The translations under genes were made by a program, and so were the position numbers. A stretch of 64,000 nt of DNA from the NCBI RefSeq assembly GCF_014203395.1, contig NZ_JACHIW010000003.1:124001-188000 (forward strand), given 5' to 3'. Under the pieces are notes generated by a model. That model was not told where the DNA came from and ran no database searches. It saw only the letters and a program-made list of their open reading frames with translations. Shown in pieces: positions 57,576 to 63,938 of this stretch. The DNA is from Saccharopolyspora phatthalungensis (GTDB lineage Bacteria > Actinomycetota > Actinomycetes > Mycobacteriales > Pseudonocardiaceae). Position 1 is the first letter of the stretch. Every line of letters begins with the position of its first letter.

Positions 57576-58622
57576 GTGTCGCGCGGAGCGTGCGGAGCGA
57601 CGGCCCGAGGTGAACGTGGTTGCCGCAGCGGTCGTGGACGCACCTGTGACCTGCGGTTTACCGCGAAACTTACCGTCACCGGGGCCAGCCTCGGTAGCTT
57701 TCTCGACAAACGAGTGCTGCGCAATCCCAACGGCACCGCGGCGATCACCGACCCCAGCGAAGACTGCATCTACAGTGACCGAACCCTGCGCGGGATCATG
57801 CGGGCGATGGTTCTGGACAACCTCAGCCAGGACGGGTTCATGCTGCCGTTGGACCTGCCTGCAACCGAGACCGGCACCGCGACCCGCACCTACTACGGCT
57901 ACGAATTGACGACCGTGTGGGAACGCATGCAGGATCTCACCAACGTCATCGACGGGCCGGAGTTTGACTTCCAGCCGTATTTCGTCTCCGGCACCAACAT
58001 GGTCCGCTGGCAGATGCTCATCGGCGGCCCACTGCTGGGCAACCAGCAAACCACGGCCGTGTGGGACTACGGCGGCGCGCTCGGCTCCATTGACGTCGAT
58101 GTCAACGGCTCGACTTCACCGGCCGCCCGGGTATGGGTCAAAGGATCGGGAACCGACCGCAGCCTCCTGACCGGCTACGCCGAAGACACATCGTTGGTAC
58201 AGCAGGGATTCCCGCCGATCGACTACGTAGACAGCGAACACACCTCCGCTACCGAGCAGTCCACGCTGGAGGACTATGCGGACGCCGACCTGGCCGCGTT
58301 CCGATTTCCCACCGAACAGTGGACCTGCTCTGTGCGGATCGACGGTGCCCGCTTCCAGGAAACCGGCGTGGAGATCTCGCCCGCGCTGGGGAACTGGCAA
58401 CTGGGCGACGCACCCACCTTCTACGTTTCCGGGCACCCGTGGCTCCCGGACGGCGGTTACCGACGCCGCATCATCGGCTTCTCCGGTGACGGCCCCGAGC
58501 ACGTGAAGCTGAAATTCGACGAGACCAGCCAATCCGCAACACCTACCCCGCCCGGATCTCACGGGCTCAACGGTCGCTTGGAACGGCTGGAACGCCAGGT
58601 CTCCGAGCTGTCCCGCTCCTGA
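57576..58622 (+). CDS. Phage minor tail protein, 5'-truncated (siphovirus Gp37-like)
   Basis: 348 residues, but the first 25 are Arg/Gly/Cys-rich and look non-coding; homology-like sequence starts at about residue 27 (FTAKLTVTGASLGSFLDKRV). The body has DGPEFDFQPYFVSGTNMVRW and QMLIGGPLLGN, typical of actinophage tail proteins, and ends in a coiled stretch (LNGRLERLERQVSELSRS). About 100 N-terminal residues appear lost at the junction with the IS630 fragment. Small membrane and lysis genes follow as in a phage tail-lysis module. Confidence 0.65.
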   Translation: MSRGACGATARGERGCRSGRGRTCDLRFTAKLTVTGASLGSFLDKRVLRNPNGTAAITDPSEDCIYSDRTLRGIMRAMVLDNLSQDGFMLPLDLPATETGTATRTYYGYELTTVWERMQDLTNVIDGPEFDFQPYFVSGTNMVRWQMLIGGPLLGNQQTTAVWDYGGALGSIDVDVNGSTSPAARVWVKGSGTDRSLLTGYAEDTSLVQQGFPPIDYVDSEHTSATEQSTLEDYADADLAAFRFPTEQWTCSVRIDGARFQETGVEISPALGNWQLGDAPTFYVSGHPWLPDGGYRRRIIGFSGDGPEHVKLKFDETSQSATPTPPGSHGLNGRLERLERQVSELSRS

Positions 58623-58650
58623 GCACCCGCGCCTGGGGAGGTGACGGCGG

Positions 58651-58836
58651 ATGTTGCCCACCGGCCTGGCGCAAGCCGTCGTCGTGCTCGTGTGCGCCGT
58701 GTGGGCCGCGAACTTCGTGGCCCCGTTTTTCGTGCCGGGCTACGTATCTGATCCGCAGCTCAACCTCGTGTTCATGAGCATCGTCGGCGGCGCTCTGGCG
58801 TTGAGCCGAAGCCGCAGACGGGACGGTGACCAATGA
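58651..58836 (+). CDS. Small phage-associated membrane protein
   Basis: 61 residues with two hydrophobic helices (AQAVVVLVCAVWAANFVAPF and NLVFMSIVGGALALS) and a basic end. GGGGAGGTGA precedes the ATG and its stop overlaps the next start (ATGA). Size and place between tail and lysin genes suggest a holin-like or accessory lysis protein, unproven. Confidence 0.65.
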   Translation: MLPTGLAQAVVVLVCAVWAANFVAPFFVPGYVSDPQLNLVFMSIVGGALALSRSRRRDGDQ

Positions 58837-59318
58837 CGGTGGCATACCTGCTGAATTCCGTCGCCTGGTCGTTGGCCGGATTCCTGCTCGGCCTGCTCCT
58901 GGGACAGCTCGGCCGCGCAGTTCAGGATCTCGAAGAAGTGGTGGCAGTGACACACAAAACGACCCCGCCCAGCAGGCGGAGACGACCGTTGCTGACCTGG
59001 GAACGCGCAGCCGGGATCGTGGCGGTGCTCTCGGCCGTCACCCTCGTCACGGCCGCGACGTCGGCCTACCAACTCCAGCAGAAAACCGAGTTCCAAACCC
59101 GCTACAACGTGGCGCTGCGAAACCTGCTGGAAAGCCGCACCCAGGCCAACCAGCGAGTGCGCGACGCGCAGGCCGAGTTCATCGCCGCGCTGGCCGCGCC
59201 CAACCTCAACCCGCGTGACCCCGCGCTGCGTACGGCGCTGGACCGCTACCACGCCGCACTGGAAGCCGACCGCGCCGAGCATGCCCGCGTGCCCGTGCCC
59301 GAAGCCCCCGACTGTTAG
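58833..59318 (+). CDS. Phage-associated membrane protein with coiled coil
   Basis: 161 residues: one helix near 7-28 (SVAWSLAGFLLGLLLGQLGR), a second near 55-75 (GIVAVLSAVTLVTAATSAY), then a long helical domain (NLLESRTQANQRVRDAQAEF). The coupling ATGA links it to the preceding gene. Actinophage lysis modules often have such proteins between tail and endolysin genes. Exact role unknown. Confidence 0.6.
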   Translation: MTVAYLLNSVAWSLAGFLLGLLLGQLGRAVQDLEEVVAVTHKTTPPSRRRRPLLTWERAAGIVAVLSAVTLVTAATSAYQLQQKTEFQTRYNVALRNLLESRTQANQRVRDAQAEFIAALAAPNLNPRDPALRTALDRYHAALEADRAEHARVPVPEAPDC

Positions 59319-59330
59319 CGAGGTGATCGC

Positions 59331-59996
59331 ATGGCATGGCGCGTCGCCCGCTCGCTCGACGTTCTACTGAACCAGCTCAACGCCCGTTTCCCCAATCGTT
59401 CCAAGGTTTCCGATGGCTCGATCGGAGACGCCGCGCACGCTAGCACCGACAGCGACCACAACCCGTGGTACGGCCCCGGCATCGTCACGGCACGCGATTT
59501 CACGCACGATCCCAACGCCAGGGTGGACATTGGCCGGCTGTCCGACGAGCTGGTCGCCTCCCGTGACCCGCGGATCAAATACATCATCGCCAGCGGCCTG
59601 ATCCTGGATACCCGGCCGCAGTACAGCCCGTGGCGCTGGGTCCGCTACACCGGCAGCAACCCCCACACCAAGCACCTGCACCTGTCCGTGATGGACAGCC
59701 CCATCTGCGATGACACTCGGCCGTGGAACCTGCCCATGCTCGGCGGCACCACGACCCCGGGCACCGGAGGACGACTTGCAACCCGACGAACGCGCCGCCC
59801 TGTTCACAATCCAAAACGAACTGCTCGGCCCCCGAGGGCCGCAGGGGCAGATCCAAGGCTGGGGCACCACCAACGGACCCCGCACGGTCGTGGCGATGCT
59901 CGTGGATCTCGTCAACGCCGCATACGCGCCGATCCGCAGCGCGGTGCAGAACTCCGACTACGAAGCCCCGCCACGTCAGTACCTCGCCAACGCTGA
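59331..59996 (+). CDS. Phage endolysin, M15-like peptidase domain
   Basis: The first 142 residues are a peptidase domain with M15-type zinc residues: HASTDSDHNPWYGPG, VTARDFTHDP and the HxH of HTKHLHLSV. Such lysins cut the peptidoglycan peptide. After GGTTTPGTGG (about residue 144) the frame goes on for about 77 Arg-rich residues that mirror the next gene and are unlikely to be native. A base change probably removed the true end, or the frame should pass into the domain encoded at 59776. GAGGTGATCGC precedes ATG 59331. Confidence 0.7.
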   Translation: MAWRVARSLDVLLNQLNARFPNRSKVSDGSIGDAAHASTDSDHNPWYGPGIVTARDFTHDPNARVDIGRLSDELVASRDPRIKYIIASGLILDTRPQYSPWRWVRYTGSNPHTKHLHLSVMDSPICDDTRPWNLPMLGGTTTPGTGGRLATRRTRRPVHNPKRTARPPRAAGADPRLGHHQRTPHGRGDARGSRQRRIRADPQRGAELRLRSPATSVPRQR

Positions 59997-60231
59997 CGCC
60001 TACGGCTACAACGCCGCCCAGCAGCTCGGTGCGCTCCTGGCAGCGTTCGATGCGCTGGCCGACGCCTACGCACAGCACCGCGACACCGATGCGGCAGGCA
60101 TCAAGGCAGCCGTGCGAGAAGCACTCCAGGAAGGCGTAGTCAGCGTTGACGTCAACATCTCGGGTCGTGCCCCGGACAACACGGTTGCCGACGACCGCGC
60201 CCAACTCGAACAGGAGGCGAGCCATGAGTGA
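59776..60231 (+). CDS. Lysin-associated protein (possible detached lysin linker domain)
   Basis: 151 residues from TTG 59776, which has GGAGG four bases upstream. It begins MQPDERAALFTIQNELLGPR and GPQGQIQGWGTTNGPRTVVA, like the QLTGPW-GGRTLVDAL linker domain found inside actinophage lysins, then becomes a helical region (LGALLAAFDALADAYAQHRD). Either an independent gene, or the second half of the lysin separated by a frameshift around 59765. Its stop overlaps the holin-like gene. Confidence 0.6.
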   Translation: MQPDERAALFTIQNELLGPRGPQGQIQGWGTTNGPRTVVAMLVDLVNAAYAPIRSAVQNSDYEAPPRQYLANADAYGYNAAQQLGALLAAFDALADAYAQHRDTDAAGIKAAVREALQEGVVSVDVNISGRAPDNTVADDRAQLEQEASHE

Positions 60232-60502
60232 GCACACGAGCCCGTCCGAGCCGATGCTGAGTCAGGTCGAGCCGGCCGCAGTGGCGGAAGGTGCCCGCAT
60301 GGTTCTCGGGACGTTCGTGGCGCTTGGCTGGATCACCATCGACAGCACCACCATCAACGCGATCATCACCGGCGTGAGCGCGGTCGCCTCCGTGGCGCTG
60401 ACGATCTGGACCCGCCGCCGCGTTACCCCGGCTGCCCGCCCACGCGACGCCGACAGGACAGCCCTCGTACCTGCGCCGCCATCGACCAGACTCGCCGAGT
60501 GA
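60224..60502 (+). CDS. Holin-like small membrane protein
   Basis: 92 residues from ATG 60224 with AGGAGG upstream. A polar head is followed by two close hydrophobic stretches (RMVLGTFVALGWITI and INAIITGVSAVASVALTIW) and a basic tail (TRRRVTPAARPRDADR), the layout of class II phage holins. It would let the lysin reach the wall. Position directly after lysin genes supports this. Confidence 0.7.
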   Translation: MSEHTSPSEPMLSQVEPAAVAEGARMVLGTFVALGWITIDSTTINAIITGVSAVASVALTIWTRRRVTPAARPRDADRTALVPAPPSTRLAE

Positions 60503-60610: not shown

Positions 60611-61027
60611 TTAGCGCGCCGCGATCCACTCAACACACGTCGGGCGCTCGCCAGTGCGTACGTACTCGGCGACGGCCCGTAGTACGAGCTCGATCGGCAC
60701 CTCCGTGTGCGCGTCCATCGGCGTGTGGTGAAGCCCGCCTAGCCAGTAGTCGATCGGCTCCGCATTGGTTCCGTTCGCCGGAACCATCGGCGGTTGATCC
60801 TGCCAGGCGAGCGCGCCCGTCTCGGAGTCGCGAACGCCCACCGACAACGCCGGTTGCTCGTACCACGGAAGATCATCGCGGAGGTTCGACAACGTCCACG
60901 ACCAAGGACAGCCGAGCTCCGGATCTTGGCTCAGTTGCCGAATTGCGTCGACCAGATCAACATCCGGCGGAAGCTGCCGAACATCGATGTCGTTGCTCCG
61001 TAGCAGATCGCTCGTACTCGCCGTCAT
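60611..61027 (-). CDS. Imm1 family immunity protein
   Basis: 138 residues. The second half fits Imm1: MVPANGTNAEPIDYWLGG, LHHTPMDAHTEVPIELVLRA then VAEYVRTGERPTCVEWIAA, with the family's buried tryptophans and the RPxxVxW ending. Imm1 proteins neutralise toxins of polymorphic systems, often deaminases and nucleases. Its ATG overlaps the stop of the deaminase toxin gene (ATGA), the standard toxin-then-immunity order. It should act in the cytoplasm by binding the toxin domain. Confidence 0.82.
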   Translation of the reverse strand: MTASTSDLLRSNDIDVRQLPPDVDLVDAIRQLSQDPELGCPWSWTLSNLRDDLPWYEQPALSVGVRDSETGALAWQDQPPMVPANGTNAEPIDYWLGGLHHTPMDAHTEVPIELVLRAVAEYVRTGERPTCVEWIAAR

Positions 61028-61800
61028 GATCCCTTCCCGTGGTAGGTGTGGCTGAACGGTTTCCCGTCGGCCGTCGTTCCGTGCACGGTCATCGAGCGCC
61101 CCCGTGGCAAGAACCGTTCAAGCATGTCATGGCATCCCCGTGTCTGCCCCGGCTCCGAACCACACGGGGCGTGGTTGATCACGACTTCCTGATGTTGATC
61201 ACCGGTCCGGGTCATCATCGCCGCGATCTTCATTTCGACGTGCCGTCGCAGGTCAAGCGGGCGGCGAACGCCGATCTCCTGTAGGCGTTGGTCGACCATG
61301 TCCGAGAATCCGTCAGCCCCGGACTGAACCCGCGTCGGGAGCCCGTTCACACGGACGTAGCCGACCGTCGGCGAGCCCGCGCCACGCTGCACACGTGGCG
61401 GTAAGCCTTCGTCGACCGCCCACGCCGCCGCCGCTGGGTACTCCGACCCGTCGACACCGACAGCGTTCGGCGGAGGCTTCGGCGCGGCTGGGCGCTCCGG
61501 TTGCGGCGGCGTGTTCCCGGCGGCCGAGCTCGCCCCCGCACCGATGCTCCGGCGATACTGCTCGATCCGTTCCCGCACCGCCGCCAACATCCGCCGTGCC
61601 TCCGTCAGCGTCTCGATCGCCCATTCCTGCGTCTGGACTGCCTCGGCCGCCTCCGGGTCGGTGGAACCCGTGAACGCCCAAACGAGCGCGTCTCGCCCCT
61701 CCTCCCACGCTGTGAGTGCTTGGTCCATCTGGGGGAGCGCCACGTCGAGTTTGCCGACGGCGTTCGCTAACCCCTGGTCGACCTCTTCCAACGCAGACAT
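61024..61800 (-). CDS. SCP1.201/DddA-like deaminase toxin with helical N-terminus
   Basis: 258 residues from ATG 61800 (an in-frame ATG at 61860 adds 20 unlikely residues). Residues 1-85 are helical, like an LXG/ESX-type trafficking domain (LPQMDQALTAWEEGRDALVW, LTEARRMLAAVRERIEQYRR). A Pro-rich hinge (90-112) leads to the deaminase: SGADGFSDMVDQRLQEIG, the catalytic HVE (H187, E189) in RRHVEMKIAAMM, VVINHAPC (C213) and C223 in RGCHDML as zinc ligands, then FLPRGRSMTVHG. This pattern is that of SCP1.201-like deaminases, which include the double-stranded-DNA cytosine deaminase DddA. The substrate (DNA, RNA or nucleotide) cannot be told. The next gene is its immunity. Confidence 0.82.
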   Translation of the reverse strand: MSALEEVDQGLANAVGKLDVALPQMDQALTAWEEGRDALVWAFTGSTDPEAAEAVQTQEWAIETLTEARRMLAAVRERIEQYRRSIGAGASSAAGNTPPQPERPAAPKPPPNAVGVDGSEYPAAAAWAVDEGLPPRVQRGAGSPTVGYVRVNGLPTRVQSGADGFSDMVDQRLQEIGVRRPLDLRRHVEMKIAAMMTRTGDQHQEVVINHAPCGSEPGQTRGCHDMLERFLPRGRSMTVHGTTADGKPFSHTYHGKGS

Positions 61801-61938
61801 GAGCCCCCGATCGTTGCCGCGTTCGCCGGTCGGCGCGATCATGCCGGGCGCCCCCGACACCCCGTTTCAAGATCAACCCCTGCGGGTATCGCCGGCGATA
61901 GGGGATCATGCCTCTGAACTGTGAAAACAGGATCGGGA

Positions 61939-62757
61939 TCAGCGGCGCGAGACGCCCCGTCGGCTCTCGGACCATGCGCGGGCGGTCGCCGCCATCGTCG
62001 TTGCCCACGGGCTGGGGTGATCCCGATCAATCTCGTTCCACATGTTCATGTTCGCGTGGGCGAACACGGCAACATGCTCAGGATCAGCGACGGCATAGGC
62101 GGGAAGTCGTGCCGCGATCGCTTCGGCCTGCGCAATGCTGTGTCCACGGGCCATGAGTCGCAGCAGCCAGAATGCCGGGTCGGTCCAGGATTGCGCCGGG
62201 GTCGCCCATGCCCAGTCGATCAGCCACGCCTGTCCTTGTGAGATCAGGATGTTGTCCGGCACCCAGTCCGTGTGGGTAAGTGCCGACCCGGCAAAAATCT
62301 TCGCGTCGGCAGGATCATCGACGTAGGTCCGCATGCGCGTTTCTATGGGCTTCCACGGACCAGGACCAGCCGGGATCTCAATGGCGCTCAAAACGCCCAT
62401 GAGATCAACCACCAGATCAATGTCAGGTGAGCCCGGCTGGTAGTGCGCCGACCGGCCGTCAATATGCTCGAAACCGTTGACTTTCCAACCGTTTTCGTCG
62501 AACCAAAACAGCAGTTCCGGGGAAATCCCCTTGACCAGCGGCGCGGCGGCGGCCTCACGAGCCTGAGTGATGACCATCCGGTGATCAGACGGCAAGCCCT
62601 TCGCGAATACCCGGCCGTTGCGGGTCTCCAGCACGGCGGCTAGCGGCGAGTTCTGCCCGTCAGTCACGGCGCGTCCCGCAATGATCGGCCCCGTCCGGGC
62701 ACTGATCGACTCGATGAGAGAGCCGGGAAAGTCGGCCCACTGGATACGTTTTGCCAA
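61939..62757 (-). CDS. Aminoglycoside phosphotransferase-like kinase in the RiPP locus
   Basis: 272 residues of APH/choline-kinase fold. The catalytic loop is LTHTDWVPDNILI (H-x-D-x-x-x-x-N, near 160-172) and the metal Asp is in AWLIDWAWATPAQ near 182; an N-lobe Lys is in GRVFAKGLP near 54. Such kinases phosphorylate small molecules or, in some peptide pathways, Ser/Thr side chains. It is the third gene after the radical SAM enzyme and the precursor peptide, 72 bases past the precursor stop. Modification of the peptide's serine run, self-resistance, or an unrelated role are all possible. Confidence 0.78.
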   Translation of the reverse strand: MAKRIQWADFPGSLIESISARTGPIIAGRAVTDGQNSPLAAVLETRNGRVFAKGLPSDHRMVITQAREAAAAPLVKGISPELLFWFDENGWKVNGFEHIDGRSAHYQPGSPDIDLVVDLMGVLSAIEIPAGPGPWKPIETRMRTYVDDPADAKIFAGSALTHTDWVPDNILISQGQAWLIDWAWATPAQSWTDPAFWLLRLMARGHSIAQAEAIAARLPAYAVADPEHVAVFAHANMNMWNEIDRDHPSPWATTMAATARAWSESRRGVSRR

Positions 62758-62829
62758 CGGTGGTCCCTGCTGAATAGGGCGGGCGGCCCGGCATGATCAC
62801 CGGGTCGCCAGCAGCGGTTGGTCACTCGA

Positions 62830-62973
62830 TCACTGGTAGGGGGCGTCGCTGGATGAGCTGCACGCGCACATCGTCATGAGACCATCGGTTTCCCCGGTGA
62901 GTTCCACGGCGTCCGGGTCCAGCATGTCGGACTCCGGCGGAGCCGGGAGCAGTTCGACGGCAACAGCGGTCAT
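62830..62973 (-). CDS. Candidate RiPP precursor peptide (47 aa)
   Basis: ATG 62973 has the near-perfect Shine-Dalgarno AAGGAGGTGA about five bases upstream and overlaps the radical SAM stop. The peptide starts MTAVAVELLPAPPESDMLDP and has an acidic leader (DAVELTGETDG), then the candidate core LMTMCACSSSSDAPYQ with C36, C38, four serines 39-42 and Y46. An acidic leader before a Cys/Ser-rich core is typical of ribosomal natural products. The leader's ESDMLD and the ETDG before the core recall FxLD-type lanthipeptide precursors, but no dehydratase is present here. Radical SAM-made thioether or C-C links at Cys, or serine phosphorylation, are possible products. Confidence 0.72.
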   Translation of the reverse strand: MTAVAVELLPAPPESDMLDPDAVELTGETDGLMTMCACSSSSDAPYQ

Positions 62974-63938
62974 GATTCACCTCCTTTCGCGCTCAGCGGG
63001 CCACTACTGCCGTGCTGGCAGTAGGTCTCTAGGGGTGCCTGTGCCTGCCGGTAGAGATTCGCCAGCGGCATACACGTCCCGCAAGATTTTTGAAGGGTGC
63101 AGCCCGAGCACCCGCCGTGACGGGTGGTGAGCCGGTCGCCGATCACGGCGAGCTTCCGGAGACCTTCCACACCCTCTTCGAGCAGGTTCACCTGCGCTTC
63201 CCGGCCGACCTTGCAGATGCTGGCCATCCCGTGGGGGTCGGCGTGGAAGTGCGTGATCCCCGCGTTGCACCCGGTGTAGGGGTCGTGCCTGCGCAACACC
63301 TCGTTCGCCTGGCTGGGGAGCACTTCGCCCGTGCCGTGAATAGTCGGCGTGATGTTGGTGTACTCGAATGACGGGATGCCGTAGCGGTCGGCTATCGCCG
63401 TCATCTCGTTGCGCTCATGCGCGTTGTGCCTGCTCACAACGATATTGATCCGCATTTTGAGCCCGGCCTCATGGGCGGCTTCAAGCCCGCGCATGAACCT
63501 CTTGAACGCCCCCCTGCTCCGGGTCATCCCGTCGTAGGACTCCTCCGTCGCCCCGTAGAGGCTGAGCGTCAGCCGGTACGGCCGGTAGGTTCTCAGAAGG
63601 TCGAGTGTCTTCCCCTGATACAAGCGCGACCCGTTGGACGAGATCTGGATCATCATCCCCAGCCCGTACGCGTAGGCGAGCGTTTCCGCGAACAGGGGAT
63701 CGATCAGCGGCTCACCTCCGGTGAGCTGAAGCCAGAGAACCCCGGCCTTGGCCATGATGTCCAGGAGCCGTTCACGGTCGCGCCATTCCATGCCCGCAAA
63801 CAGCTTCTCACCGAGATAGCAGTGATCACAGTCGTAGTTGCACCCGAGGCTGAGTTCGTAGCTGGCGCGGGCGTAACCGTACGGGGTATCCGGGCGCACC
63901 ATGATCGTGTCCCCGGCCGCCTTCCCGGCCACGTCCAC
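62970..63938 (-). CDS. Radical SAM/SPASM-type peptide maturase
   Basis: 322 residues if GTG 63938 is used; ATG 63902 (MVRPDTPYGYARASYELSLG) is as likely. The cluster-binding CxxxCxxC reads LGCNYDCDHCYLG, and LTGGEPLID is the SAM-binding GGE block. The C-terminal third is Cys-rich as in SPASM or twitch domains: TGCNAGITHFHADPHG, MASICKVGREAQ, GGCSGCTLQKSCGTCM and YCQHG. Such enzymes install thioether, C-C or epimer changes on peptides. No RiPP recognition domain is fused. The stop overlaps the precursor start, so enzyme and substrate are coupled. More of the cluster may lie past the window end. Confidence 0.88.
   Translation of the reverse strand: MDVAGKAAGDTIMVRPDTPYGYARASYELSLGCNYDCDHCYLGEKLFAGMEWRDRERLLDIMAKAGVLWLQLTGGEPLIDPLFAETLAYAYGLGMMIQISSNGSRLYQGKTLDLLRTYRPYRLTLSLYGATEESYDGMTRSRGAFKRFMRGLEAAHEAGLKMRINIVVSRHNAHERNEMTAIADRYGIPSFEYTNITPTIHGTGEVLPSQANEVLRRHDPYTGCNAGITHFHADPHGMASICKVGREAQVNLLEEGVEGLRKLAVIGDRLTTRHGGCSGCTLQKSCGTCMPLANLYRQAQAPLETYCQHGSSGPLSAKGGES

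Follow-up and report, generated by a model that had tools for sequence, protein, structure and literature searches.

The DNA analyzed here, called the window throughout, is a stretch of 64,000 nucleotides from Saccharopolyspora phatthalungensis (contig NZ_JACHIW010000003.1, positions 124,001 to 188,000). Near its end lies a cassette of three genes on the minus strand, which are transcribed in the order radical S-adenosylmethionine (SAM) gene, open reading frame (ORF) of 47 codons, APH-like kinase gene. The in-window part of the radical SAM/SPASM maturase is an ORF of 322 amino acids (62970..63938; ORF reading, Pfam, alignment and structural model). Its stop codon TGA and the ATG of the small ORF (62830..62973, 47 amino acids) share bases in an ATGA at 62970-62973, and a Shine-Dalgarno sequence, AGGAGGTG, stands ahead of the small gene at 62978..62985. 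The encoded peptide, MTAVAVELLPAPPESDMLDPDAVELTGETDGLMTMCACSSSSDAPYQ, has an acidic leader followed by the C-terminal MTMCACSSSSDAPYQ, with the core CACSSSSDAPYQ. The kinase gene (61939..62757) starts with TTG and encodes 272 amino acids, K53, E68, H162, D164, N169 and D181 being present. A preliminary description of the locus, whose listed features are all seen in the sequence, had proposed a compact cassette for a ribosomally synthesized and post-translationally modified peptide (RiPP). The three-gene cassette is real: precursor and kinase genes recur behind homologous radical SAM genes, so the arrangement is more than chance, and maturase, precursor and kinase are conserved as a unit. As set out below, in the relatives examined the kinase is present with nearly all precursors that end in a tyrosine-bearing motif and absent where another residue takes the place of this tyrosine, which points to tyrosine as its likely phosphate acceptor.

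The radical SAM protein matches PF04055 (E 3.6e-18) and carries the CxxxCxxC motif as CNYDCDHC; its seven further cysteines are all C-terminal. Both the CxxxCxxC motif and the seven C-terminal cysteines (C281, Gx4C299, C334X2C337X5C343X2C346, C364) are invariant across 13 aligned sequences. SPASM domains have a seven-cysteine pattern of the form Cx9-15Gx4C ... CX2CX5CX3C ... C, which is found here with a last spacing of X2 rather than X3; the SPASM family was absent from the Pfam matches listed for the radical SAM proteins. The best structural match of the radical SAM model was the RiPP maturase SkfB, followed by SuiB, which tied with MoaA, viperin, BlsE and PqqE, non-RiPP enzymes among them. 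The N-terminus is predicted to fold as beta-beta-beta-alpha-alpha and to resemble a RiPP recognition element (RRE; as part of the larger model, the block has a predicted local distance difference test score, pLDDT, of 77-96). The structural alignments with SkfB and SuiB begin at residue 3-4, though the match list barely probes the residues before 74.

Most of the 120 relatives listed are 364-382 amino acids long, and the 322-amino-acid ORF is not the whole radical SAM gene. Translation probably starts beyond the window, at a GTG near window position 64106. In this assembly the first ~58 codons do not keep the frame of two homologs, L011 (genome G006) and L019 of Pseudonocardia eucalypti, in two alignments, with one TGA inside the match. 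The RRE-like part of this copy is encoded beyond the window and in a disrupted frame; this broken start was outside the view of the preliminary description.

Homologous loci came from 75 contig loci (the 66 loci L019-L084 were used; L085-L093, weak partial matches, were dropped), from relatives found in genome searches, from 8 plasmid and 2 phage records (three of which were fetched, L094-L096) and from 7 viral contigs. The 229 loci held 215 radical SAM sites, and 165 were left after identical 3' ends had been dropped. At least 1100 nt of downstream sequence was available at 160 sites, and a core could be assigned at 157 of them, five by eye. L016 and L083 had no precursor, L082 was counted once despite two fragments, and L075, L101, L111, L115 and L123 were too short. 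The search pattern for precursors combined a Cys and a Pro with two positions that had to be acidic or polar. Of the 161 sites with enough sequence for testing, 153 had the end of a core-like ORF immediately after the radical SAM gene; the controls gave 0 (reverse strand of the region), 1 (upstream kilobase) and 2 (shuffled sequence). A Shine-Dalgarno-like motif with a candidate start accompanied 147 of the 153 family precursors. Conservation of the small ORF, one of the two points on which the preliminary description had let its proposal stand or fall, was thereby borne out.

Family precursors are ~40-75 amino acids long and share the C-terminal pattern Cys...D-D-x-P-Y. The last Cys stands 7 residues ahead of the Pro in 104/157 cores and 5 ahead in 53/157, and Asp occupies Pro-2 in 154 and Pro-3 in 139 of the 157 cores. 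A CxC is present in 105/157 and missing from 52, the five cores read by eye also having it. Since the precursor search demanded both Cys and Pro, their conservation is partly built in. CxC turned out to be optional and a Ser run rare: SSSS occurs in 6/157 precursors, which group together in a single region of the tree.

The residue following the Pro is Tyr in 125 of the 157 cores (L101 included), His in 18, Phe in 10, Asn in 3 and Gln in 1; the count takes Pro-motif cores, and L097, which ends in QVYNN, was left out. The Tyr is often trailed by one further residue. A kinase gene accompanied 122/125 Tyr precursors and 0/32 precursors with Phe, His, Asn or Gln at sites followed by 1100 nt or more (Fisher p 2.8e-30, a value that ignores relatedness and has to be read together with the tree-based results below). 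Absence of the kinase was confirmed in 4-11 kb of downstream flank at 23 kinase-less loci, comprising 20 non-Tyr loci and the three Tyr exceptions. With one locus taken for each of 102 distinct C-terminal 13-mers, the kinase was found with 82/83 Tyr and 0/19 other cores. The same match was seen in a fresh set of 43 additional loci, in which any residue after Pro was allowed and which had not been used in forming the idea. Six of its 43 sites duplicated earlier ones and 34 of the remaining 37 were counted: a kinase was present with Tyr in 23/23 and with the other residues (His 8, Phe 3) in 0/11, a GNAT gene being found at every one of these 11. L262, L282 and L285 were not counted; read by eye, L262 is one more Tyr locus with a kinase and L285 a broken precursor with a GNAT acetyltransferase gene. 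The tree was built without the short loci L286 and L288.

Because the kinase profile matched no PDB sequence at E 0.01, a fold search was used, which gave an APH fold with LxmK among the matches listed. An antibiotic-resistance APH was rejected, as PF01636 reached 18.7 bits against a cut-off of 23.2 and APH(3') 12 against 205; some of the kinase relatives listed carry a precomputed PF01636 match.

Which residue, then, might the kinase phosphorylate? The preliminary description had suggested the four-Ser run of the window core, and class V lanthipeptide pathways use APH-like kinases on Ser/Thr (PMC9486802), possibly as a step towards dehydration here too. The SSSS of the window core and the presence of LxmK in the fold list fit this idea. 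Against it, 49/122 kinase-linked cores are devoid of Ser and Thr, and 29/32 non-Tyr, kinase-less cores contain them. Moreover, the HopA1 lyase family (PF17914) was detected in 3 of 20 cassette-bearing genomes and never near the cassette, the three genes being separated from it by ~65 kb or 0.9 Mb or located on a different contig; the other 17 genomes, including that of the window, had none. Ser phosphorylation followed by class V-type dehydration was rejected on these Ser/Thr and lyase counts, and we regard action on core Ser/Thr as highly improbable. As the kinase tracks the C-terminal Tyr and many linked cores lack Ser and Thr, it most likely acts on Tyr. The patterns in sequence make the Tyr a likely phosphate acceptor, be it on the precursor or on the product.

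A GNAT-domain protein (C-terminal GNAT; PF00583 in the one scanned) replaces or precedes the kinase in some cassettes. GNAT genes are present at 8/10 Phe, 18/18 His, 3/3 Asn and 12/125 Tyr loci, and the ten loci with both kinase and GNAT all have Tyr (10/10). The kinase-less Phe lineage L096/L127 has no GNAT either. Inspection by eye revealed no target residue for GNAT: GNAT-linked cores have CxC and DDNP in common, and no core Lys. In PADLOC neither kinase nor GNAT had a match at E 0.01, and a viperin-type defence was rejected for the radical SAM protein, the radical SAM fold alone being in common (pVip 58.6 bits). A family of 151-amino-acid proteins with no Pfam match lies 3' of the kinase in loci of the LGCG(D/N)DNPY type (L052:9115-9570 and relatives) and is shared by L096 and L127, NPF members that have no kinase.

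We propose the following pathway. Order and overlap of the genes, which are observed, suggest that translation of the precursor would be coupled to that of the radical SAM enzyme. The predicted RRE-like N-terminal domain of the radical SAM enzyme would hold the acidic leader, and the conserved Cys would be the most likely site at which the enzyme modifies the C-terminal core, one possibility being a thioether to one of the conserved Asp residues shortly after it. This thioether is a guess because the Cys-to-Asp spacing varies. The APH-fold kinase would then place a phosphate on the phenol of the Tyr in D-D-x-P-Y, as the matching of residue and gene suggests; Phe, His and Asn loci have no kinase, and at most of them a GNAT acetyltransferase gene takes its place. 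That the precursor is the substrate of the radical SAM enzyme we hold to be very probable. Tyr phosphorylation of the precursor as a step in maturation is favored, with modest confidence. Taken as a whole, a RiPP-type modification cassette with a Tyr-phosphorylating kinase is the best explanation and, in our judgment, a probable one.

Several observations weigh against this reading. The SPASM end of the radical SAM model has a pLDDT <50, SuiB shares its structural rank with the other proteins named above, and the assembly shows a disrupted radical SAM gene in the window itself. The search required Cys and Pro, one search also limited the residues after Pro, and PN cores were picked up by eye. 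Three Tyr loci are without kinase, L061 (no GNAT either) and L228 and L229 (GNAT only). Radical SAM trees show few Tyr/non-Tyr changes (4-6), so that the tree-based sign test stays above p 0.05 (median p 0.0625-0.125). Among 6 pairs that differ in kinase, 4.5 have a matching difference in Tyr and 1.5 have none. A zincin-like metallopeptidase gene lies upstream at one plasmid locus, so a protease is possible at some loci.

The small number of independent changes, the sign test and the three kinase-less Tyr loci would also be expected if the match reflected shared descent only, with a few lineages holding different third genes and a last residue that has drifted. Yet the kinase never changes in the direction opposite to Tyr in independent pairs, Tyr is kept at all loci with both kinase and GNAT, and L096/L127 have neither gene; we thus find descent alone improbable. 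A different possibility leaves Tyr as the acceptor and has the kinase act on the mature product after its release, either for self-protection or to give a storage form. Kinases named for corramycin and amicoumacin act on antibiotics in this way. Release and secretion would call for an exporter and a protease, and by reading neither is widely common around the cassette, which makes this possibility doubtful. Indeed, the preliminary description had noted no dehydratase, protease or exporter in the window, and this seems to be general: none was recognized among the nine gene clusters common to at least 5 of the 66 loci (by reading, with Pfam on some). An ABC-transporter-like cluster was present in 3 loci.

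The cassette in the window itself could be decaying cargo that yields no product in this genome. The host genome of 8.5 Mb contains two further copies, L008 and L009. In L008 precursor and kinase are almost identical to those of the window (99% over 1020 bases), and 197 bases of the radical SAM 3' end are all that is left of this gene. In this region (L008:9914-11414 and L008:12652-14295) an insertion, on our own reading probably an insertion sequence, parts the precursor from this leftover piece, and a different radical SAM gene (PF04055) is located ~1 kb beyond it. L009 is diverged: its precursor ends in NRCSCTSSDDNPY, a kinase follows, and the reading frame of its radical SAM gene is disrupted close to the 5' end. 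All three radical SAM genes found in this genome look damaged, unless small assembly errors account for this. The damaged copies and the out-of-frame start in the window speak for decay; the intact precursor and kinase ORFs, a possible sequencing error and the open radical SAM frame of the close relative G006 speak against it. We judge decay to be slightly the better bet for this copy.

The neighborhood of the window cassette is of phage type, which the preliminary description had left unmentioned. Genes for a minor tail protein (phrog_1885, 3.1e-40), a phrog_32486 protein that is lysin-like by reading only and a holin-like protein below the Pfam cut-off occupy 57576..60502 on the plus strand. 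Between them and the cassette sit, on the minus strand, genes for a DddA-like deaminase toxin (61024..61860; PF14428) and an Imm1 immunity protein (60611..61027; PF14430), both identified with Pfam. On our own reading these surroundings are a prophage remnant, and the nearby genes for tail and holin-like proteins suggest that the cassette came as phage cargo. The pair of DddA-like toxin and Imm1 genes follows the kinase immediately in the window (60611-61860, minus strand), in L009 (11958-12722) and in L032. DddA-like matches were seen in 4/164 cassette loci (L007, L009, L032, L074), L007 and L009 being reference sources. A small reference set of these phage genes was matched by 15/164 loci, 7 of them reference sources, a rough figure given the short flanks. 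No tRNA integration sites were found in the window and nine loci.

Carriers of the cassette are Actinomycetota, plasmids, a Streptomyces phage and one Parcubacteria metagenome-assembled genome (MAG). The Streptomyces phage Success encodes the complete unit as genes 3-2-1, namely a radical SAM protein annotated 'oxidoreductase', a peptide ending in PGCGDDNPYN and a kinase; it was the only phage (two records) with the cassette that the limits used picked out of 50,697 records. In L098 and L102, both viral contigs, a regulator gene precedes the three cassette genes, after which come what we read as holin, lysin and tail genes, with Pfam backing for the L098 lysin (peptidoglycan binding) and the L102 integrase. 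At E 1e-70 the radical SAM gene was found in 60/343 genomes of the genus of G473 (probably Streptomyces), in 44/200 of the family of G721, in 31/297 of the order of G616, in 16/345 of the class and in 8/348 of the window's order, the last two counts including the window's genome. In the Parcubacteria MAG (L078), a 34%-identical radical SAM gene is followed by a 36-amino-acid peptide ending in CACSSGDDQPQN, with no kinase or GNAT match; we regard it as the core idea of the cassette outside Actinomycetota.

A regulator gene is frequently encoded upstream. The regulator group comprises three sequence clusters, and one scanned member of each gave HTH_31 plus TPR, HTH_31 alone and no Pfam match. 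Within 3.5 kb upstream, successive bins held it in 5/57, 16/54 and 4/52 loci, and bins farther out in 1/50 and 1/48; downstream the successive bins gave 0/58, 0/57, 2/56, 0/52 and 0/49. NUDIX-like genes, by our own reading, precede the radical SAM gene by 1-3.5 kb (L030, L034, L037, L038, L040), in 5/54 and 7/52 loci in two upstream bins and near the helix-turn-helix (HTH)-TPR regulator. An HTH-TPR regulator with a small peptide recalls RRNPP systems, an analogy that may serve as a lead. With an HTH(-TPR) regulator upstream in many loci and no widely common transporter or protease, the product may act intracellularly or pass through housekeeping enzymes. Speculatively, and we think this unlikely in its full form, the cassettes might represent a widespread RiPP class of actinobacteria and phages whose SPASM-modified peptide, O-phosphorylated at a Tyr near the C-terminus or bearing Phe/His with GNAT, is an intracellular ligand of the upstream regulator and a signal on chromosomes, plasmids and prophages.

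In the open-access literature, from which subscription papers are mostly missing, no title or abstract start named the cassette, and a search with the core motif returned one unrelated paper. The cassette is thus undescribed in the literature searched and suggests a type of phosphorylated natural peptide that has yet to be reported. Here sequence alone predicts a specific phosphate acceptor, the C-terminal Tyr, in an uncharacterized RiPP cassette, and, owing to the matching of residue and enzyme, many peptides could each be tested by a single mass shift. Why a virus should carry a system for a modified peptide is a question prompted by the phage copy.

How does the cassette compare with known systems? 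With the SPASM RiPP maturases SkfB, SuiB, PqqE and CteB it shares the CxxxCxxC motif, seven SPASM-type cysteines, a predicted RRE-like domain and an adjacent small precursor gene. The best NCBIfam models listed, 25 of 54 for the window ORF and 25 of 45 for P0117, were all below their cut-offs (top 83.5 bits against 500), and mycofactocin and the other named radical SAM models listed were rejected on these grounds. The precursor core is unlike those of the sporulation killing factor and streptide. As for sactipeptides and ranthipeptides, Cys (partly by search design) and Asp are conserved here and a thioether is conjectured from sequence. MftC of mycofactocin biosynthesis is among the nearest radical SAM models (TIGR03962, 82.3 bits against a cut-off of 265). 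The MftA peptide has a C-terminal Tyr, whereas the Tyr here is often followed by one residue and replaceable by Phe, His or Asn. To our knowledge, RiPP kinases act on Ser/Thr and none on Tyr.

Two kinase-containing RiPP families are also among the nearest known systems. Class V lanthipeptide pathways employ the APH-like kinases LanK (CaoK, LxmK), which phosphorylate Ser/Thr for dehydration (PMC9486802). The cassette differs in that no HopA1-type lyase (LanY) lies near it in 20 genomes and in that Ser/Thr are not conserved, though the window core has Ser. In paeninodin-type lasso peptides, genes for the kinase PadeK/ThcoK co-occur with a conserved C-terminal Ser acceptor (PMC9266682). The cassette resembles these pathways in the co-occurrence of kinase and acceptor, and would differ in combining a putative Tyr acceptor with an APH-fold kinase and a radical SAM enzyme instead of Ser and a lasso.
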